A stretch of DNA of 38,830 bases from Deltaproteobacteria bacterium (lineage in GTDB: Bacteria > Myxococcota_A > Polyangia > Polyangiales > Houyiibacteriaceae), in NCBI GenBank assembly GCA_013151775.1, contig JAADHO010000089.1, positions 1 to 38,830 on the forward strand, written 5' to 3'. Under the pieces are notes generated by a model, which saw only the letters and a list, made by a program, of their open reading frames with translations, made no database searches and was not told where the DNA came from. This document shows, piece by piece, positions 2,803 to 24,191 of the stretch (within the stretch, counting starts at the first letter, position 1; every line of letters starts with the position of its first letter). The translations under genes were made by a program, and so were the position numbers.

Positions 2803-5115
2803 CTACTCGGCGATGGCGAACTCGGGGCAGACGGTGAAGCTCGCGAGGCAGGGGAAGCGTAGCCCACGCAGGGCGTCGCGGACGCAGGCCACCACGTCGG
2901 GCGCCGCCCCTCCGCGGCTGCGCACGTCGCGGACCCGCCCGCGGTCGTCGAGCACGATCTCAACTGAGGCGCTGCCATAGCCGAGGCAGCTCTCCGCCGC
3001 CGTCGACATGCGACTCATGTCCGCTTGCGCGTTACCCTCTACTCGCTCGGAGCCGGCGGCGCAGACCAAGTTGGCGTCGCTGATCGCTTGTTTCACGTCG
3101 GCGGCGATGCGCTCCCCGCGCGCCACTGAGTCCGAGTCGCTGTAGCAGATGTTCCAAGACGCGCTCCCGCCATACGTGCCCGGGGAGTAGGATACGCTGG
3201 GCTCCGCACCCGGCGAGGCGATGGAGACCTGGCCGCTGAAGCAGGCGTCGGCATGGGCGGCCACGACAGCCGCCTCGCCCATCTCCTCTCGCTGGCGTGC
3301 GTCCGTGCACACGACGGAGGCGTCACGCCGGCTCGCGTCACGTCGGCTCGCGTCCACAGCGCCATCACGCGTGGAGTCGAGACCATGGCTCTGATAGCAA
3401 CCGCTAGCGCTCATCATCACGAATGAGATGGCAGAGGCCGCTGCGCCCCGCACCGGTGCGAAGCGCTGGAGCTTGGTGTTCTTAGAGCGGAGCAACCTGG
3501 ACTCCACCACGCTCACGTCCTCTCCGAGGGCGTCTGCACGTTGGCGCAGTTCATGGGCGAGCTCGCGCGCCTCGGCGAAGCCACCGCCCGATAGGGCGAG
3601 CTCGAGCCCACGTCGGTAGCCATCGGCGTAGAGTCGGTTTACGGCGCGCCTCACGCGCTCGAGTCGACGCTCACTCCCTTGGTCCACCCGCTCCGGGTGC
3701 AGCCTTCGCGCCAAGCCCAAGGCGAGGTGGGTGTCGTGCGTGCGGTAGGCGAGGCTGTAGCTGTAGAAGGCCTCGCCGCGCAGCCGCGTGAAGATCTCTG
3801 CGAAGCGCTCCATGCGCGCGTCCTCGTAGCTGTAGCCATAGCGGAATGCGTTTCCCACGAGCCGGCCCGCGGCGGCCATCTCGTCGTGCAAGCGCGTGCC
3901 GTGGTAGACCATCATGCGCGTCGCCTCGAAGACTCCTGCCGGCAAGCGTTCGAGCAGCTCCACCCCGGCACGAATGGTCTCGGGCGTCGAATAGGGGTGC
4001 ACGAGCATCAGGTTCGAGACGGTGGCTACGCCTAGCTCGCCGAGTGTGCGCACGATCTCGAGCTCGGCCTCTCCCGGTGGACGTCGCGCGAAGCGATGGG
4101 CCTCCTCCGTGGTCGCGAGTTCGAGGCCGACGAAGCAGCGCACGAGGCCTGCGTCCCGGAAGGCCTCACACACCGCCGGCGTCAGGCGATCGGCGCGCAG
4201 CATGGCGCCGATGCCGAAGGCACCGAGCCCGCGATCGGTCAGGGCGGCGCTGAATTCCCCAAGCCAGTCGATGGCCGCCTGCTCCTCGTAGGGCAGCAGG
4301 TGTTCGTCGACGAAGTAGAAGTAGCGGACGTCGCGCTCGTGCCAGAGCGTCGCCATCTCGTCCGCGAGGGAATCCATCGCGCGCCGGCGCACGCCTCCTA
4401 CGCCCACATTCCGCAGCACGCCGAGGGAGTGCTGACCGCGCTTGCCCTCCTCGAGCTCGGCGTTCTGAAGTGCCGCCGGGCTGCAGTAGAAGCAGCGCCC
4501 TTTACAGCCCCGCGAAGCCATGATGTGACACGCCCGATGGCCAAGCAACTCGGGGAGCTCGTCGCGTCTCGGCACCAGACGCATGGGCGCCGTGTCCAGG
4601 ACGGACGCGGGCCTGCCGTCTCCGGCTCGAGTCGTCACGCCAGGCACGTCGGCCACGTCGAGCTGCGACGCGAGGCGTTGCGCCAGCTGCACGATGGGCA
4701 CCTCACCCGCGTGGCGCACGACGCTGTCGAGCCAGCCGTAGCGCTCGAGCAGCCAGCCTCGCGCCAACGTCGCGAACTGACCTCCGGCGGTGATATGCCC
4801 CTCGAAGCCCCGCTTGCGCAGCAGCTCCCCGAGGGCGAGGGGCCACAAGGCGGAGCCTCCGTCTGCCAAGGAGAGGCCGAGCACACTCGGCGGGTTCTCG
4901 GTCAAGGCCGCGGCCGCGCGCTCGAGCTCAGCCACGTCGTTGATGTAGTGCGTGACGCTCGCGATGCCCACCTCGTCGAGGGCTGCGCGCAGGTAGGCGA
5001 GGCCGAGGTTTTCGTTGTACGCGAGCCGCCGACCGACCAGCGCAACGGAAAAATCGTGGAGCATCATGTCCCCCATGTCAGCGTGAGCAGAAGAGCGCCG
5101 GTTGACGTCGCTCAA
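2803..5115 (-). CDS. B12-binding radical SAM protein, reading frame fused to a lipoprotein-like C-terminal domain
   Basis: 770 codons. Residues about 20-165 look like a cobalamin-binding Rossmann domain without the DxHxxG motif, as is common in B12-dependent radical SAM enzymes. Cys204, Cys208 and Cys211 form the CxxxCxxC [4Fe-4S] motif, followed by a radical SAM barrel to about residue 450 and a helical tail to about 535. The same frame then encodes a lipoprotein-like signal ending in SASGC (Cys573, bases 3399-3397), a DASRR repeat linker, and a Cys-containing domain whose end (SVEIVLDDRGRVRDVRSRGG and on to RFPC) resembles AgmX/PglI-type TonB-like C termini. A cytoplasmic enzyme joined to a lipid-anchored domain makes little sense as one polypeptide. 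A strong internal ribosome site (3518-3525) suggests a separate product from GTG 3510. The enzyme start could also be ATG 5076. Substrate unknown; methyl transfer or RiPP maturation is possible. Confidence 0.75.
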   Translation of the reverse strand: MSDVNRRSSAHADMGDMMLHDFSVALVGRRLAYNENLGLAYLRAALDEVGIASVTHYINDVAELERAAAALTENPPSVLGLSLADGGSALWPLALGELLRKRGFEGHITAGGQFATLARGWLLERYGWLDSVVRHAGEVPIVQLAQRLASQLDVADVPGVTTRAGDGRPASVLDTAPMRLVPRRDELPELLGHRACHIMASRGCKGRCFYCSPAALQNAELEEGKRGQHSLGVLRNVGVGGVRRRAMDSLADEMATLWHERDVRYFYFVDEHLLPYEEQAAIDWLGEFSAALTDRGLGAFGIGAMLRADRLTPAVCEAFRDAGLVRCFVGLELATTEEAHRFARRPPGEAELEIVRTLGELGVATVSNLMLVHPYSTPETIRAGVELLERLPAGVFEATRMMVYHGTRLHDEMAAAGRLVGNAFRYGYSYEDARMERFAEIFTRLRGEAFYSYSLAYRTHDTHLALGLARRLHPERVDQGSERRLERVRRAVNRLYADGYRRGLELALSGGGFAEARELAHELRQRADALGEDVSVVESRLLRSKNTKLQRFAPVRGAAASAISFVMMSASGCYQSHGLDSTRDGAVDASRRDASRRDASVVCTDARQREEMGEAAVVAAHADACFSGQVSIASPGAEPSVSYSPGTYGGSASWNICYSDSDSVARGERIAADVKQAISDANLVCAAGSERVEGNAQADMSRMSTAAESCLGYGSASVEIVLDDRGRVRDVRSRGGAAPDVVACVRDALRGLRFPCLASFTVCPEFAIAE
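3320..3349 (-). repeat. Two 15-bp tandem units behind a lipobox (DASRR)
   Basis: Units at 3320-3334 and 3335-3349 differ by one base and encode DASRRDASRR, followed by a partial third unit. They lie about 15 residues after the predicted lipidated Cys573 of the overlapping reading frame. Confidence 0.7.
3518..3525 (-). promoter_or_regulatory. Internal ribosome binding site for a lipoprotein start at GTG 3510
   Basis: Read on the minus strand this is GGAGAGGA, 7 bases before GTG at 3510-3508. Starting there gives a basic n-region, the hydrophobic stretch GAAASAISFVMMSA and the lipobox ASGC, a normal lipoprotein signal of about 37 residues. The lipoprotein product would run 3510-2803 (235 codons). 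The TGA at 3515-3513 in another frame would end the radical SAM frame here if one upstream base were miscalled. Confidence 0.5.
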
Positions 5116-15532: not shown

Positions 15533-17247
15533 ATGAAGCAGCTAGCGATCCTCGCCCTCCTCGTCGCCCTGAACGCGAGCTCTCCCGGGGGAGCGCTGGC
15601 GCAGGTATGCGGTGACTCTTCCGTCGATTCGGCCGAGGCCTGCGACGACGGGAACATCGTGGCCGGCGACGGCTGCTCCGCCACCTGCAGCGTCGAGACG
15701 GGTTGGAGTTGCGGCTGTGGGGCGCCGAGCTTCAGCTACTCCATGGAGATGAGCGCCGGGCGCATCGGCGGCCCCGACGGCAGCGCCGGTCCACGGATGG
15801 GCTGCGGCGGCAACGACGTGCTGATCGGCCTCGCCATCGGCTGGAGCGACGCGCGGGGCGAGGGCGTCCGCACGCGGGCGCTCTGCGGCGCGGTCAGCGT
15901 CGACGCGGGTGGCGCCGTCACCACGACGCCCACGACCACGGAGGAGAGCGGCGGCAGCGGCTGCTTCGGCTGGGCTCCACCTGGTCTCCCGACGTGAGCT
16001 GCCCGACCGGCTGGGCCGTCGTCGGCCTCACGGGCAGCTTGCCCGTGGGCGGCACCACCCTGTTCACAGACCTGAACCTCGTGTGTCAGCAGATGGGCGT
16101 GGACGGCAAGCCCGCGGGTCCGACCATGTCCATGAACATCCCCGGCGGAGGCGGCGCCGCTGGCGTGGCGCAGGCGGTCTCTTGCCCGACCGACACGATC
16201 GCGCGCTTCTTCCAGACGCGCTCCGGCTGCGGACAGGACGCCCTCGATCTCTTCTGTGGCGTACCCGCCGTGAGCTGCTCGGGGAGCGGCTCGATCTGCG
16301 CGACGCAGTGCGGCGATGGCGTCATTGGGGCGCCGACGGAGCAATGCGACGACGGCAACGCCGTGGCCGGTGATGGCTGCGACGCGAGCTGCGCCATCGA
16401 GCCTGGTTGGACGTGCTCGGCAGCCGGTGCGGCCTGCGCCGAGGTCTGTGGAGACTCCATCGTGGTGGGCGCCGAGGTCTGCGACGACGGCGTGGAGACC
16501 GCCACCTGCGACGGAGACTGCAGCAGCGTCGTCTGCGGCGACGGACGACTGAACACGCTAGCCGGTGAGGGCTGCGACGAGGGCGCGCTGAACTCGGACA
16601 CGGAGCCCGACGCCTGCCGCACGACCTGCGCCGTCGCGAGCTGCGGCGACTCGGTCGTCGACACGGGCGAGAGCTGCGATGAGGGCTCGGCCAACTCCGA
16701 CGCGCCGGGCGCGACCTGCCGCACGAGCTGCGCGCTCGCGAGCTGCGGAGACGGCGTCGTCGACACGGGTGAGGAGTGCGACGACGGCGCGAGCAACTCC
16801 GACGTGGCGGACGCGTGCCGCACGAGCTGCACCAACCCGGCTTGCGGCGACGGCATCGTCGACACGGGCGAAGGCTGCGATGACGGCGCGAGCAATTCCG
16901 ACACCATGGCGGACGCCTGTCGCACGAGCTGCGCGGCGGCGACCTGTGGCGATGGCGTGGTCGACATGGGCGAAGCCTGTGACGACGGCGCCACCGGCTC
17001 GGCGACCTGCGACACGGCTTGCGCGATCATCACAGCGGGCGTGGACGCAGGCATGGACGCGGGCGTGGCTGATGCGGGAGCGGACGCCGGCGTGTCAGAC
17101 ACGGACGGTGGCGCGGATGGCGGCAGGAGCTATGGCCTGTCGGGTGGCGCCGGATGCAGCGCACCGGGCGGCGCTGGACGTGGCGGCTTCCCGCTGCTCT
17201 TCGCCTTGGCCTTCGGCCTGCTCGCTTGGCGTCGCCGACGCCGCTGA
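15533..17247 (+). CDS. MYXO-CTERM surface protein with DUF4215-type Cys repeats, frameshifted
   Basis: ATG 15533 follows GGAGAAGA. The signal MKQLAILALLVALNASS ends ALAQ. Eight Cys-rich repeats of the form CGDGxVDxGExCDDG are visible, two at or near the N-terminal part and six or so from 16309 to 17020, with DACRTSC between. The tail has Asp/Gly/Ala repeats, then GCSAPGG, a hydrophobic segment and RRRRR, a MYXO-CTERM sorting signal for the cell envelope. The first frame stops at 15997 (TGA), but the protein logic passes into another frame at about 15969: GCFGW joins to STWSPDVSCPTGW. One extra G in the run at 15968-15971 would heal it. It is either a sequencing error or a recent inactivation. 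It converges on a radical SAM gene with only 12 bases between. Confidence 0.8.
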
Positions 17248-17259
17248 CGACCCTTCGCC

Positions 17260-18174
17260 TCAACCCGTGAAGGGCTCGTAAGCGTCCCAGCCGTCGCGGG
17301 CCGGGTACTCGCGCCAGGGTCCTTCACAGCTCGCGTTCTTGGCGCAGTGCTCGCAGGGCGGGCCCTTGGCTTTGCCCTCGTCCTTGCGCCACTCGGAGAA
17401 GGCGAAGTTCTCCCCGTCCATGTCGACCACGGTCGTGTCGGGGATCATGTCCTCGACGATGGCCTCCTCGACGCCGCGCATCAGGCAGGGCGGCATGGCC
17501 TCGACCATCATGCGCATGCCGAGGTCCATTCCGCGTCGTGCGGCGCGCCGGATCGCCTCGGCCGCCTCTTCGATGGCCGGCACGACCTCCATCATGCGCT
17601 CCTCGGCCGTGCCCACGGGGTGCACCAAGGCGAGCTGTGACTCGCGCACGCCGAGGGAGTGGAGCAGCTCCACCGTCTCCACCAGGCAGTGCAGGTTCTG
17701 CTTGGTCACGACCGTATTCGTCACCACGATGGCGCCCGCCGCGACCACGTTGCGGATGCCCGCCTTGGAGTACTCGAAGCTGCCCGGCGCGCGCGTGAGT
17801 CCGTCGTGCACCTCCGCCGTGGAGCCGTGCAGGGAGGGCGAGAACTCTTCCGCGCCGGCGCGCATCAAGAGGGCGACCTTCTTCTCGTAGCTGAGCAGCT
17901 GCCCGTTGGTCTGGATCTGCACGGGCCGATAGCCGAGCTTGCGCGCCTCGTGGACGAGCTTCGGTAGGTCGGGATGCAGCGTGGGCTCTCCGCCCGTGAG
18001 CACGATGCCCGCGCCGGGGCGATAGGCCTGCTTCATGCGCGCCACGAGCTCATCGAAGTCGAAGCGGGCGTGCCCGCGACGCTTCTCTCCCTGCGCGCAG
18101 AAGACGCAGCGGTTGTTGCACGCGAAGCCGACCTTCAGATCCGTGCGCGGGACGCTCGAGCCGCTCTCAGTCAT
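17260..18174 (-). CDS. Radical SAM protein with Cys-rich C terminus, second gene of a maturase-like pair
   Basis: 304 residues. Cys19, Cys23 and Cys26 (CNNRCVFC) hold the [4Fe-4S] cluster, and VLTGGEPTLHPDL is the GGE motif for SAM binding. The end carries CEHCAKNASCEGPW, possible ligands for an auxiliary (SPASM/twitch-like) cluster. Its ATG overlaps the stop of the upstream radical SAM gene by 8 bases, so the two should be made together. It could be the HxsC-like partner of an Hxs-type pair, but the segment after the Cys motif (AQGEKRRG) is not what I expect of HxsC, so I leave it unnamed. Modification of a peptide or protein is inference; substrate unknown. Confidence 0.75.
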   Translation of the reverse strand: MTESGSSVPRTDLKVGFACNNRCVFCAQGEKRRGHARFDFDELVARMKQAYRPGAGIVLTGGEPTLHPDLPKLVHEARKLGYRPVQIQTNGQLLSYEKKVALLMRAGAEEFSPSLHGSTAEVHDGLTRAPGSFEYSKAGIRNVVAAGAIVVTNTVVTKQNLHCLVETVELLHSLGVRESQLALVHPVGTAEERMMEVVPAIEEAAEAIRRAARRGMDLGMRMMVEAMPPCLMRGVEEAIVEDMIPDTTVVDMDGENFAFSEWRKDEGKAKGPPCEHCAKNASCEGPWREYPARDGWDAYEPFTG

Positions 18175-19648
18175 CAGCGCGGTGCAGGTAGTGGTCGCGG
18201 GGGCGCACGGTGGTCCACTTGGCGAAGGCGTCCATCACCGCCGGATCGGCCTCGTCGAGCTTCTTGAAGAGGAAGTCCTGAATGCCCATGTGCACCTTGC
18301 AGAGCGTGCTCTCGGCGGTTCGTCCGAAGAGCGTGCCTTGGGTCTTGTGGTTGTGGACGGGGCAGACGCCGCAGTAAGGCTGATACGCGCAGCGGCTGCA
18401 CTGGGGCTGCCCGTCGAGGTTCGAGGCGACGGCCAAGGTGCGCACGGTCTCGTGCCCCATCAGCTCGCGGTAGCTGCTCGACTTCACGTCACCGATCAGG
18501 AAGGTGTCGTCCCCCTCCTCGCTCAGCATGCGGCCCTCGTCGCAGGTGAAGATGCGCCCGTCGTAACCGTAGGCGACCTGGCCGATGCCCGCGCCGCAGG
18601 GGCTGCGGATGTCGAGGTAGTTCGGGTCTTGGCCGCTGAGGATCTTGGTCAAGAAGATGCCGGCGAAGCGCTCGAGGATCTCTTCGCCCTCGCGGTTCTT
18701 CTCGAGCATGTACTCGACGGCGGTCTTGTAGAATTCGAGGAAGTCTTCGATCGGGTAGGCGAGCTGCGCGGCGGTCTTGCTGGCGAAACCGAAGGGGTCG
18801 AGGGGGCGCAAGAAGAGGGCACGGCAGCCGAGCTCGAGGTAGGTGTCCACCACCTCGCGCGGGTAGGCGAGGGTGCGCTTGGTGGTCGTGAGCAGCGCCT
18901 CCACGCGGTAGGTGTTGGGATCGAGGCCCGCCTCCTCGTAGGCGCCGTTGATGCGCTTGATCCACTTCACGGTCTCGGCGTGGGCGCTGCCGCTCACGAG
19001 CTTGCGCTGCGCGTCGTGCACCTCGGCGGGACCATCGACGCTGGTGCAGACCTGGATGCGATGCTCGCAGAGCCACTCGAGCTTCTCGTCGTCCATGGTG
19101 GCGAGGTTCGAGACGAGGGCGAACTCGAGGGTCTTCTTCGCCTGCTGATTCTTCTCGAGGGCGTAGTCGACGATGTGCTTCAAGAGGTCGAAGCGCAGCA
19201 GCGGCTCGCCGCCCTGGAACTCGATGGTGATGTCCGGGCTGGTCGAGGCGAGGGCGAGGTCGACGCTGCGCTCCGCCGTCTCGAAGGACATGTCGCTCGA
19301 GAGATCGCTCTCCGCTGCGCGCGAGGCGTGGCAGTAGGCGCAGGTCTCGTTGCAGCGCAGCGTGACGATCATGATGTGCAGGTTGGGCCCATAACTCAGG
19401 AAGGGCCGACGCTTGGAGAGCGCCGAGGCCGCGACGTCGGCGCGCTCCGGACGCTCGAGCAGGTTGGCCTCGAGCAGGCGCGCCTCGAGCTTGCCGAGCT
19501 CTCCGCGCTGAAGCGACGCGAACTCGTCCTGCGAGACCATCAGCCAAGAGCCCTCCTGGCTGGTCAGGAGGACCCGGTCGTCGAGCTGCCGGAAGCGATG
19601 AAAGCCGAGCGCCCGCGCGGCGCTCTCGGAGGAATCGGGTGAAGCCAT
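18167..19648 (-). CDS. HxsB-like radical SAM/SPASM maturase
   Basis: 493 residues from ATG 19648; the frame is open further upstream, but the Met is the natural start. The N-terminal 90 residues look like a peptide-recognition region. Cys99, Cys103 and Cys106 (CNETCAYC) are the radical SAM cluster, and ITIEFQGGEPLL is the GGE motif. The C terminus has SPCGAG, FTCDEGRML, CSRCAYQPYCGVCP and a late Cys, fitting a SPASM domain with auxiliary clusters. Length, IEFQGGEPLL, FLRPLDPFGFA and the C-terminal Cys layout match what I know of HxsB, the His-Xaa-Ser system maturase. However, no His-Xaa-Ser repeat precursor or HxsD is visible nearby. It is the first gene of the pair. A TATGAT box just upstream may be its promoter. 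Confidence 0.75.
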   Translation of the reverse strand: MASPDSSESAARALGFHRFRQLDDRVLLTSQEGSWLMVSQDEFASLQRGELGKLEARLLEANLLERPERADVAASALSKRRPFLSYGPNLHIMIVTLRCNETCAYCHASRAAESDLSSDMSFETAERSVDLALASTSPDITIEFQGGEPLLRFDLLKHIVDYALEKNQQAKKTLEFALVSNLATMDDEKLEWLCEHRIQVCTSVDGPAEVHDAQRKLVSGSAHAETVKWIKRINGAYEEAGLDPNTYRVEALLTTTKRTLAYPREVVDTYLELGCRALFLRPLDPFGFASKTAAQLAYPIEDFLEFYKTAVEYMLEKNREGEEILERFAGIFLTKILSGQDPNYLDIRSPCGAGIGQVAYGYDGRIFTCDEGRMLSEEGDDTFLIGDVKSSSYRELMGHETVRTLAVASNLDGQPQCSRCAYQPYCGVCPVHNHKTQGTLFGRTAESTLCKVHMGIQDFLFKKLDEADPAVMDAFAKWTTVRPRDHYLHRADD

Positions 19649-19713: not shown

Positions 19714-20391
19714 TCACCTGCGGCGCGTCGGGTCCTTGGGCTTGGGCGAATGTCGATAGCGGCGCTGGGCTTTCGGAGCCTCGGTTCGTCGCTTGGCCAG
19801 GTGTTTCAGTCCTCGGACCAGAGCGCGAAACGAGGGCGATCGACTCCGAGCAGCGCTGGTGGTCAGCGACTCTCCCATGCGCTCTGCCCACAGAACCTTG
19901 TTCCCACCGCCATCCCCGATGACCTCACCGAACAACTCCCACGTGCCGCAGACGGAGTCTGGGGCGTACGCGCGCGCCATCTCCATGTCAGCGTTCGGAT
20001 AGGCTCGCTCCAGCGCGGCGAGGTCGCCCAGGTAGAAGGCCTCGGTTTCTTCGACGGCGATGCACACCACTACGGGGAGGTCTGGGGCCACCGCGTCGGC
20101 GGCTCGCCTGATGCAAGCGGCGAGATCGATACAGTCGTCATCGTCCGCGTCTATCAACACGAGCACTCCCGGAGGCGGGGAGCCCGCATTTGCGAAGCCC
20201 CGCAGCTTCGCAGGCAGCTGATCCAGCAAGCCGCGCTGTTTTGGTGGCGGCGGCGAGGTGAGATTGGCTGGCAAGCTGCCCTTGCCCTGGTGCGGGTGAA
20301 CCTTCACGGCAACACTTCGCAGAAGGCGCTTCAGCCAGGGCTCCAGGAAGGCGCGCTCCGAAGGCCCTTCGACGAGCAGGTGGAGTGTCAC
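19714..20391 (-). CDS. DUF4276 family protein (TOPRIM-like), partner of the AAA ATPase
   Basis: 225 residues. LLVEGPSERAF at residues 5-15 and LVLIDADDDD around residue 80 give the Glu and DxD acidic positions of a TOPRIM-like fold, as described for DUF4276. Glu-rich EETEAFYLGD follows, and the C-terminal 30 residues are Arg/Lys/Pro-rich and may bind nucleic acid. Its ATG overlaps the ATPase stop by 4 bases (20388-20391). ATPase plus TOPRIM-like nuclease is the same logic as OLD and Gabija-type defence proteins, but split in two. Nuclease activity is inference. Confidence 0.75.
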   Translation of the reverse strand: MTLHLLVEGPSERAFLEPWLKRLLRSVAVKVHPHQGKGSLPANLTSPPPPKQRGLLDQLPAKLRGFANAGSPPPGVLVLIDADDDDCIDLAACIRRAADAVAPDLPVVVCIAVEETEAFYLGDLAALERAYPNADMEMARAYAPDSVCGTWELFGEVIGDGGGNKVLWAERMGESLTTSAARSRSPSFRALVRGLKHLAKRRTEAPKAQRRYRHSPKPKDPTRRR

Positions 20392-21617
20392 TCGGGTGCG
20401 CCATCGTCGAAATGATTGCTGTACCAGAGGGAGCCAAGTGGAATCCCCTGATCGAGCAAGGCTTGGATCTCCGGTTCTTCACTGGCTCGCCTGGCGACCG
20501 AACACCCTCGCTCCTTCTTGAGGATGAAGACCTGCTCGGCGCGCAGCGCATCTACGAAATATGGCGAGTGGGTCGTCAGGAGAAGTTGCGTGGGTGACGT
20601 GGTACTGCTCGCTCTGAGGCTAAACTGTGCCGCCAGGCGATCCACCAAACGCACGTAGAGGCCGTTCTCTGGCTCTTCGATCCCGATGAAGGGGCGCGGA
20701 GCAGGATCAGCCAATAGAATCGCATACGCGAGCATCTTGAGTGTCCCATCGGACATGCTCTGCTGATAGAATGGATCCGCGTATCCGTCCTCATCGAACT
20801 TCAGCAGGAGTCGGCCATCCTTGCTGATTTCCGTCGTAATGCGTTCGAGTCCAGGAACCGCCTTGGCGAGTCTTCGAAGGATCTGATCGTACTCCTGCGC
20901 GTATTGTCGTTCGAAGTACTGGAGAACGTTTCCGAGGTTTGAGCCGGTCCGGTCGAGCCAGCGCTGAGCGCCCGCCGCTGGCAGGGCTCGCGCGGCCTCG
21001 GGGACGAAGTACGACAGATACCATCGCTCGATATACTGTCGCAGGCGCACGATCCGCGGGTGTTCCGACAGGTTACCGAGCGTCGTGATGCCGAGCTTGT
21101 CGCGATCAGCCAGACGCACCTTCTGCTCGTCCTTCTTTCCCGCCTTGACTCCGACGGATTGACCTGCCCACACCTTCCCGGAACCTTCCTTCAGCTTGAG
21201 GAAGTAGTATGGTTTCCCACGCGTTTGGCCTTGCTGGCGTTGGCGGAGGGTTTCTTCGACCACGGCCGGAACCTCACCCACGAGACCGATACTGAGGCGG
21301 TATACGATCGGTCGGTCGACGTCCTCATCTTCGAAAAAGACCTCGAACTCGATGGGGCCCGTTGCGCCCTGCGAGCGCAGGCGCTCGAAGCCGCCGCGAC
21401 CTGGCTTGTCACACGCGTTCTCGACACCATCGAGGAGGCAGTCCGCGACGAACCCGAAAGCGTCCAACACGGACGACTTGCCTGCACCGTTCGGGCCGAT
21501 CAGGCAGGTGAGGCGGGACAACGACTCGTCCCGCCTCGTCGAGTACGACGTCTGGCCAAGGTGCAGATCGACGAGCGACCGGTAGTTCTGGATGCGAATT
21601 CCCAGCAGTCGCGCCAT
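20388..21617 (-). CDS. AAA family ATPase (AAA_21/SMC-like), first gene of a two-gene defence-type operon
   Basis: 409 residues. Walker A is GPNGAGKS at residues 41-48. The ABC-type signature region is SMSDGTLKMLAYAILL, Walker B is FIGIEEPENGLY, and the H-loop is LLLTTHSPYF. There is no long coiled coil, so it is of the short AAA_15/AAA_21 kind rather than a true SMC. ATG 21617 follows GGAGAAGA. Third codon positions look less G/C-saturated than in neighbouring genes, which would fit horizontal transfer; I judged this by eye. The likely role is an NTP-driven sensor controlling the downstream DUF4276 protein. Confidence 0.85.
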   Translation of the reverse strand: MARLLGIRIQNYRSLVDLHLGQTSYSTRRDESLSRLTCLIGPNGAGKSSVLDAFGFVADCLLDGVENACDKPGRGGFERLRSQGATGPIEFEVFFEDEDVDRPIVYRLSIGLVGEVPAVVEETLRQRQQGQTRGKPYYFLKLKEGSGKVWAGQSVGVKAGKKDEQKVRLADRDKLGITTLGNLSEHPRIVRLRQYIERWYLSYFVPEAARALPAAGAQRWLDRTGSNLGNVLQYFERQYAQEYDQILRRLAKAVPGLERITTEISKDGRLLLKFDEDGYADPFYQQSMSDGTLKMLAYAILLADPAPRPFIGIEEPENGLYVRLVDRLAAQFSLRASSTTSPTQLLLTTHSPYFVDALRAEQVFILKKERGCSVARRASEEPEIQALLDQGIPLGSLWYSNHFDDGAPE

Positions 21618-21710: not shown

Positions 21711-24191
21711 CTACCTGACGCTCATGGAGCGTGCCTCGTCCAGGATCTGCGCCCGCTGCGCCTCGAAGCGCTCGAGATCTGGCTGCCAGGCGCGCTCTAG
21801 AGCCTCGAGGGGTGCTCCTCCGCGCAGCATCTCGAGCAGGGCGTCATCGGCGACCAGGCCCGCGGTGGCGTCGAGGTCGAAGCGACGTGGCGCCTCGGCG
21901 CGAAGGGCGAGCAGCAGCGCGAAGCCGGTGCGGGCGGCCCGAAAGGCGTCCGCGTCGCTGAGCACGAGGCGCACGCCATGACAAGCGCGATTCCGATAGG
22001 GACGCGCCCTCGGCGTGAAGTGTGCGGGCTCGAATCGCACACCGGGGAGCTGCGCTGCGGATAGTCGGACGGCGAGCGCGTCGGCGTCGAGGTAAGGCGC
22101 GCCTACCAAAGCGAAGGGCGAGTCCGTGCCGCGGCCGACGCTGACGTTGGCGCCCTCGATCAGCGCCGTGGCGGGATAGAGCAGGGCGGACTCGGGCGTG
22201 GGCAGGTTCGGAGAGGGTGGCGACCACGCGAGGCCCGTGTCGGCGAAGCGAGCGCTGCGGCTCCAGCCCGCGGGAGCGACGACCTCGAGGCGCACGCTCA
22301 ACGACAGCTCGGAGACGAAGAGACGCGCGAGCTCGCCCAGAGTCAGGCCGTGGCGGATCGGCAGCGGGAAGGAGTTCACGAAGGAGGGCTCGGACGGACG
22401 AGAGACCGGACCTTGCACCAGGACGCCACCCAGCGGATTCGGGCGATCGAGAACGACCACGGCTACGTCCGCCTCGGCGGCGACGCGCAGCGCGGCGAGC
22501 AGCGTGGACGGATAGGTGTAGAAGCGCGTGCCCACGTCCACCAGGTCGACGACCAAGGCGTCCAAGCCGCGAAGATCTGCGACTCTAGGAGCGCGTCTTC
22601 GCCCGAAGAGGCTCGTCAAAGGCACGCCGCGGTAGCTGCCGCCGCGCACTCGTCCCTCGTGCTGCGCGTCGAGCCCGTGCTCGGGTGTGAAGACCCGCAC
22701 GACGTCGATCTCGGGTCTGTCGATCAATAGGTCGACCGTCTTCAGGCCGTCACGCGTGCGGGCGGCGCCGTGGGTCAAGAGTCCGACGCGGGGCGCGCGT
22801 GGTGGGCTCGCGCCAGCGTCGTCGAAGAGCCGCATGCCTCGCCGTCTGAGCACGTCCACTCCAGCGAGCACGGGCGTCGCCGGCTGCGAGCGAATGTCGG
22901 CGACCCGGGGCAGCGCGTCCAGCGCGATCCGCGCGACGTCACGCCGCAGCTCACCGAGAGTGCCCGCGCGTCCGCCATGCACCACGTTGGTCAGCAGCAC
23001 GATGAAGAGGTCTCGAGCCGGGTCGATGAAGATCCATGTGCCCGTGTAGCCGCCGTGTCCATAGGCCGCGTCCGAGAGCCCCGAGCTATGGGGTGGCTGC
23101 ATGTCCCAGCCGAGCCCCCGGCGGTGATGACCCGGAAGGTCGATCGCGCGCGTCATCTCCGCGACGCTCGCGGCCGAGAGCACACGCGTGCCATCGAGCT
23201 CGCCGTGGTTCAGCAACATGCGCGCGAAGCGAGCGAGGTCCGCGGCGCTGCTGAAGAGCCCCGCGTTGCCAGCGTAGCCGCCGAGGCGGTAGGCGCGCGG
23301 GTCGTCCACGGCGTTGCGAATGGGCGCGTCGTCGCGCTCCTCCGTGGGCGCCACGCGGGCGTCTTCGCCGGGCACGCCGCCCATGGCGCTCTCGCGCATC
23401 CCGAGGGGTGCGAAGATCTGGGCGTCCGCGTAGGCGCCGAGGCGTTGGCGGGAGACGCGCTCGATCAGGGCGCCGAGCACGATGTAGCCGAGGTCCGAGT
23501 AGACGTAGCGCGCGCCGGCGTCGGCCGCGGGCGCCAGGCGCAGGATGCGCGCGAGGTCCGCGTCGCGGTCGCCGAGGTAGGCGGAGAGGGGATCCACGGC
23601 GGGCAGGCCGCTCGTGTGCAGCAGGGCTTGGCGTAGCGTGGCGGTCTTTCGCTCGGCGGCAAAGGTTGGGAGGTAGTCAGCGATGGGCGCGTCCAGCGCG
23701 AGATCGCCACGCTCGACGAGCTGCATCACGGCCGTGGCGGTGACGATGGGCTTGGTCAGAGACGCCAGATCGAAGATCGTGTCCAGCGTCATGGGCTCCG
23801 CCGGCGGTCCCGCGTCGCGCGAACCATAGGCCCGCTGAAAGATCACCCCGTCCGCGCGCCCCAAGAGCAGCACCCCGCCGGGTATCAAATGCGAGTCGAT
23901 TGCTCTACGCATATGGGCGTCCAGCGCGTCCTGATCCTGCGGCGCCAGGCGCACGACCTCGACCGCGCCCGAAGCATGCGAGACGTCTTCGCCGCCCGAA
24001 GCATGCGAGACGTCTTCGCCGCCCGAAGCTTCCAGGACGTCTTCGCCGCCCGAAACTTCCAGGACGTTTTGCGCGATCGGCTGAGCACGACCGACGTCCT
24101 GATGGGTCGTCTCCGTCTGGGACTGTCCACAGGCGAGTGCGAGGCTCGAGACGCCGATCAGGGCCGCCCACAGCTGTCTGCGCCACGTCAT
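21711..24191 (-). CDS. Lipoprotein fusing a class C beta-lactamase-like domain to NamZ (DUF1343)
   Basis: About 826 residues from ATG 24191 (MTWRRQLWAALIGVSSLALAC, lipobox ALAC); ATG 24215 is an in-frame alternative. After an Asp/Glu/Gly/Ser repeat linker comes a serine hydrolase of the class C beta-lactamase/penicillin-binding fold: SLTK (catalytic Ser and Lys), YSD in the YxN position, and HGGYTG near the HxG position. The C-terminal half is DUF1343/NamZ, an exo-beta-N-acetylmuramidase that releases MurNAc from the non-reducing end: FTPEHGL, DVGTRFYTYP, VVLDRPNPLGG. The two activities in one lipid-anchored chain suggest peptidoglycan turnover or recycling at the envelope. It is divergent from a kinase operon. 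Confidence 0.85.
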   Translation of the reverse strand: MTWRRQLWAALIGVSSLALACGQSQTETTHQDVGRAQPIAQNVLEVSGGEDVLEASGGEDVSHASGGEDVSHASGAVEVVRLAPQDQDALDAHMRRAIDSHLIPGGVLLLGRADGVIFQRAYGSRDAGPPAEPMTLDTIFDLASLTKPIVTATAVMQLVERGDLALDAPIADYLPTFAAERKTATLRQALLHTSGLPAVDPLSAYLGDRDADLARILRLAPAADAGARYVYSDLGYIVLGALIERVSRQRLGAYADAQIFAPLGMRESAMGGVPGEDARVAPTEERDDAPIRNAVDDPRAYRLGGYAGNAGLFSSAADLARFARMLLNHGELDGTRVLSAASVAEMTRAIDLPGHHRRGLGWDMQPPHSSGLSDAAYGHGGYTGTWIFIDPARDLFIVLLTNVVHGGRAGTLGELRRDVARIALDALPRVADIRSQPATPVLAGVDVLRRRGMRLFDDAGASPPRAPRVGLLTHGAARTRDGLKTVDLLIDRPEIDVVRVFTPEHGLDAQHEGRVRGGSYRGVPLTSLFGRRRAPRVADLRGLDALVVDLVDVGTRFYTYPSTLLAALRVAAEADVAVVVLDRPNPLGGVLVQGPVSRPSEPSFVNSFPLPIRHGLTLGELARLFVSELSLSVRLEVVAPAGWSRSARFADTGLAWSPPSPNLPTPESALLYPATALIEGANVSVGRGTDSPFALVGAPYLDADALAVRLSAAQLPGVRFEPAHFTPRARPYRNRACHGVRLVLSDADAFRAARTGFALLLALRAEAPRRFDLDATAGLVADDALLEMLRGGAPLEALERAWQPDLERFEAQRAQILDEARSMSVR
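23970..24077 (-). repeat. Four 27-bp tandem repeats in the lipoprotein linker
   Basis: Units start at 23970, 23997, 24024 and 24051. The first two are identical; the third and fourth diverge. They encode repeats of the type SGGEDVSHA and SGGEDVLEA just behind the lipid anchor of the beta-lactamase/NamZ protein. Confidence 0.9.

Follow-up and report, generated by a model that had tools for sequence, protein, structure and literature searches.

The locus considered here raises the question of what two adjoining radical SAM enzymes modify when no precursor peptide is encoded beside them. The window, meaning the whole stretch of DNA that was analysed, is 38,830 nucleotides long and comes from a deltaproteobacterium. 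A preliminary description had reported two overlapping radical SAM genes, the first resembling HxsB of the His-Xaa-Ser system, and had proposed a variant RiPP-like or protein-modification system without a visible precursor, the real substrate of which might be unlinked or might be a neighbouring protein with repeated cysteines. The features concerned are as follows.

15533..17247, (+): Cys-rich DUF4215/MYXO-CTERM gene (TIGR02232, TIGR03901, PF13948), a neighbour and not part of the system
17260..18174, (-): second radical SAM gene, HxsC4-like, 304 aa
18167..18174, (-): 8-base overlap between the end of hxsB and the beginning of the hxsC4-like gene
18167..19648, (-): HxsB gene, 493 aa, ATG at 19648
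19714..21617, (-): DUF4276 and AAA_21 ATPase pair (PADLOC HEC-01B/HEC-01A), a candidate defence pair

This layout agrees with the preliminary description. Read directly from the sequence, the stop codon of hxsB is at 18167-18169 and the ATG of the HxsC4-like gene at 18172-18174, an overlap that probably couples their translation. Twelve bases separate the end of the HxsC4-like gene from the convergent MYXO-CTERM ORF ending at 17247, and the AAA_21 and DUF4276 genes lie on the other side. As had also been reported, the window yielded neither HxsD nor a His-Xaa-Ser repeat peptide, so that hxsA and hxsD do not adjoin the pair as they do in the His-Xaa-Ser system. Judged from their sequences, both genes are real and under purifying selection, because both match Pfam Radical_SAM (2.1e-11 and 1.1e-27) and because dN/dS relative to a congener is low, at 0.18 for HxsB and 0.07 for the HxsC4-like gene (93 comparable codons).

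The first gene had been called HxsB-like, and a profile search against NCBIfam places it more firmly: the match to TIGR03978 (1.8e-161, 538 bits) is well above the equivalog cut-off of 370, and by family membership the protein is a true HxsB. All ten radical SAM and SPASM cysteines are kept, namely the radical SAM CxxxCxxC (C99/C103/C106) and seven SPASM cysteines (351, 369, 417, 420, 426, 429, and 450). In the AlphaFold2 model (pLDDT 86), residues of approximately 14-80 form an RRE-like domain of three strands and three helices. The top Foldseek match in the PDB was 5wgg, a thioether-forming sactipeptide maturase (484 aligned columns, E 1e-20). The whole-chain fold is shared with 5wgg, but identity is 19% and the precursor family is different, and the same bond is not claimed for HxsB.

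The second gene is less typical. Its top NCBIfam match was NF038332 (HxsC4) at 151 bits, where the cut-off is 500, and its match to TIGR03977 (HxsC) reached 92 bits, where the cut-off is 267.9. The protein is therefore described here as a putative HxsC-type enzyme outside the formal membership of HxsC or HxsC4. The family conserves a CNN.C..C motif, which is C19/C23/C26 in this protein, and four more invariant cysteines (C230, C274, C277, and C283), which could provide room for one auxiliary cluster. With their catalytic motifs intact and their dN/dS low, both window enzymes look active. The position of the second gene relative to hxsB differed among loci, being upstream, downstream, or divergent, and in many genomes the HxsC4-like gene stood alone without an adjoining hxsB. 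At another locus (L049 4273-5769), which precedes an Hxs operon, one protein joins an HxsC4-like radical SAM domain to a PrxQ-type peroxiredoxin domain.

The suggestion that the real substrate may be unlinked gained support from the rest of the genome. A search for His-Xaa-Ser repeat peptides identified an HxsA4-like peptide on another contig, C364, in a cluster of four genes encoded on one strand in the order radical SAM-methyltransferase fusion, HxsD, second HxsB, and HxsA4-like peptide. Three of these, with coordinates in locus L015, are listed here.

422-703, (-): HxsA4-like precursor, 93-aa ORF with the C-terminus (HGS)7-W
732-2243: second HxsB, 545 bits, 57% identical to the HxsB of the window
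3064-4896: radical SAM-methyltransferase fusion, adjoining HxsD

The peptide has a leader of about 50 residues followed by QHC-(SHG)n-SW, so that it ends in QHCSHGS...HGSW, and its best profile match, HxsA4 (NF038313), scored 45.8 bits, just under the cut-off of 55. The HxsD of this contig passed its cut-off (TIGR03976, 52.2 bits against 50). A loose HxS-repeat pattern detected no second array in this 460-contig assembly, a search that a small, unusual precursor could escape. These results support a precursor that is unlinked, on another contig of the same genome, and not missing. Genes for the radical SAM-methyltransferase fusion were found in 74 of the 241 genomes surveyed, nearly all of them HxsB-positive; in about nine genomes the fusion was split to a methyltransferase-only protein, which lay beside HxsD where inspected. 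Another contig of the same genome (C55, L017) carried a run of five or more tandem radical SAM genes inside 14 kb.

Across the survey sample, which comprised 241 genomes of the class, the parts co-occurred very tightly. Exactly the same 81 genomes contained HxsB and HxsD (Fisher p 3e-66). DNA encoding HGS repeats was present in 75 of the 81 HxsB-positive genomes and in seven others, in at least two of which the repeat DNA reads as other amino acids. Six HxsB genomes had no HGS repeats: in four of them (G088, G158, G221, and G230) the HxsB belongs to a distant clade of its own, and the other two (G063 and G096) were incomplete. Strong HxsC4-like homologs were found in 28 genomes, every one of them HxsB-positive, and 27 of these 28 contained HGS repeats. 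The preliminary description had held that an ordinary hxsA elsewhere in the genome, always following the pair, would count against a new system. HGS repeats were present in all of these genomes but one, which is essentially that pattern, and the pair is therefore assigned to a dispersed known system instead of a new precursor-less one. The co-occurrence data indicate that the parts still belong together despite their scattering.

Analysis of related genomes showed that this scattering is real and is not an effect of assembly. The congener (G214) had the same two-locus layout, with a radical SAM-methyltransferase fusion, HxsD, HxsB, and an HxsA4 with more HGS repeats on one contig (C109) and HxsB with a truncated HxsC4-like gene on another (C251). 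On congener contig L120, the order of hxsB and the hxsC4-like gene was as in the window, and the second gene ran off the contig end. In G176, the HxsB/HxsC4-like pair and hxsA were on one contig but 209 kb apart (C50:140 kb and C50:349 kb), and hxsD was on contig C100 beside a stand-alone methyltransferase. G094, G111, and G176 each had a single HxsB, paired with an HxsC4-like protein, with hxsD and hxsA elsewhere; G094, G111, and G075 each carried the pair at one place, hxsA at a second, and hxsD at a third. The G111 assembly consists of about five contigs, and the one that contains the pair is more than 3 Mb long. Orphan hxsA genes (L129-L133) occupied a conserved place beside hemL/ppdK-type genes, named by eye from their protein sequences, far from the other hxs genes. 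Downstream of lone HxsB genes, nothing consistent was found that resembled a new small precursor. Around HxsD-less pairs, the only shared neighbors were those common to very close relatives (L066 and L070-L073); these include a cysteine-containing secreted protein that was not found at the other pair loci.

Comparison of the HxsB proteins indicated that they are of two kinds. The C364 type does not have SPASM cysteines 351 and 429, both of which are present in the HxsB of the window and which, by analogy with anSME, are presumably ligands of auxiliary cluster I. About 65 HxsB copies were without the auxiliary-cluster-I cysteines, which the tree resolves into approximately four to five separate changes. 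Complete and deficient copies were found together in eight examined multi-copy genomes (G000, G214, G075, G161, G171, G177, G205, and G121). In two of these the HxsB on the hxsA/hxsD side had lost the radical SAM CxxxCxxC as well (L164 5318-6817 on G161:C199, and L111 4681-6144 on G205:C30), and these copies are predicted to be pseudo-enzymes; both genomes encode a complete HxsB and an HxsC4-like protein elsewhere. The association of SPASM-complete HxsB with HxsC4-like genes was 22 of 29 against 2 of 51 genomes (p 1e-11) with a weaker HxsC4 subgroup excluded and the truncated congener gene included, and 21 of 29 against 6 of 51 genomes (p 5e-8) in a first counting. A phylogenetic sign test of the same association, which had only four independent tree contrasts, was not significant. 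The genome-level link between SPASM-complete HxsB and HxsC4-like proteins is thus suggestive and not significant, because there have been too few independent evolutionary changes.

On the whole, it is probable that the pair supplies the HxsB/HxsC arm of an HxsA4-type His-Xaa-Ser system with dispersed genes and acts in trans on the HxsA4 encoded on C364. Under this interpretation, HxsB, with its RRE-like, radical SAM, and complete SPASM domains, and the HxsC4-like enzyme would be produced from one overlapping transcription unit, and the C364 HxsA4, HxsD, second HxsB without auxiliary-cluster-I cysteines, and radical SAM-methyltransferase fusion would cooperate with them in trans. The RRE-like domain of HxsB would recognize the leader, with HxsD as a partner, and the Cys/His/Ser repeat region would undergo a radical modification. 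HxsD itself was considered as an RRE. Its AlphaFold2 core is strand-strand-helix-strand-strand-helix, which is not the RRE topology, and a Foldseek search at E <= 0.001 gave no hits; the fold of HxsD is therefore not taken as grounds for a role in recognition. A broader model, offered tentatively and somewhat doubtful as it stands, is that His-Xaa-Ser systems in Myxococcota are trans-acting and scattered through the genome, with two specialized HxsB types that work successively on a single (HGS)n peptide. One type would be SPASM-complete and accompanied by an HxsC4-like enzyme; the other would be deficient in auxiliary cluster I, sometimes a pseudo-enzyme scaffold without the radical SAM cysteines, and located near HxsA/HxsD or with the radical SAM-methyltransferase.

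It is unlikely, though less so than the other alternatives, that the pair has a different unlinked precursor of its own and that the C364 operon forms a separate system that needs no other parts. C364 does encode its own HxsB and radical SAM-methyltransferase fusion, and the HxsB and radical SAM enzyme there could suffice for the C364 peptide; the two HxsB copies differ in their SPASM cysteines; and two Hxs systems are kept in some genomes, such as G138, G157, and G121 with an HGQ-ending HxsA. However, in the three genomes in which the pair includes the sole HxsB (G094, G111, and G176), the only precursor-like gene found was an unlinked (HGS)n HxsA, HGS repeats are present in nearly every surveyed genome with an HxsC4-like gene, and in the window's own genome even the looser HxS pattern found nothing else that was array-like. 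It is very unlikely that the pair is a duplicate in decay that now lacks a function. There are two HxsB copies in the genome, and the upstream neighbors of the pair appear to be an insertion: the HEC-01A/B genes probably arrived later between the NamZ/beta-lactamase gene and hxsB, because they are missing at the same spot in the congener (L028), in which window blocks 17879-19610 and 21783-23957 align as contiguous. Yet dN/dS is low in both genes of the pair, and it is the window HxsB that has kept all ten cysteines while the C364 copy has lost two.

Least likely of all, and highly improbable, is the proposal that the adjacent DUF4215/MYXO-CTERM protein, which had been raised as a possible target of modification, is the substrate. 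The gene is rich in repeated cysteine codons and is only 12 bases away, but because it is convergent it is not co-transcribed with the pair. It also appears to be frameshifted near 15940-15997, with the signal peptide and the repeats in different frames, which is apparently either a pseudogene or an assembly error. DUF4215-type repeats are found on about nine contigs of the same genome, and co-occurrence with the pair did not emerge, for there were no such repeats near any of 25 further loci that carry the pair or HxsC4-like genes (in the congener, the contig stops within the second gene, short of this neighbor). Furthermore, it is HxsD that HxsB tracks across genomes.

The probable assignment to a dispersed HxsA4-type system has implications beyond this genome. 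Hunts for precursors usually end at the gene neighborhood, and here the neighborhood misleads; phylogenetic co-occurrence recovers the parts list of a precursor, two maturases, HxsD, and a methyltransferase. The product and chemistry of the pathway are uncharacterized in the literature searched, and the (HGS)n peptide and no more than five further proteins make up a concrete set for heterologous expression. The complete, cluster-deficient, and pseudo-enzyme copies of HxsB constitute a natural test of the role of the SPASM auxiliary cluster.

Among the closest known systems is the HxsA4/HxsC4 subtype (NF038313, NF038332), since the precursor is closest to HxsA4 and the second enzyme to HxsC4, but both are under the curated cut-offs (45.8 vs 55 and 151 vs 500 bits) and formal membership is not assigned. 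PMC9062424 credits the His-Xaa-Ser system as a whole (HxsA/HxsB/HxsC/HxsD; TIGR03976-TIGR03978) to Haft and Basu, and in the literature found, which included little from subscription sources, HxsB and HxsC were discussed as radical SAM maturases only there. As in that system, a His-Xaa-Ser repeat peptide and HxsD are encoded in this genome, as well as an HxsB equivalog and a partner of HxsC type. The present case differs in that the genes are distributed over two loci (three in relatives), in that the HxsC-type partner scores under the HxsC cut-off, and in the addition of another HxsB and of a radical SAM-methyltransferase.
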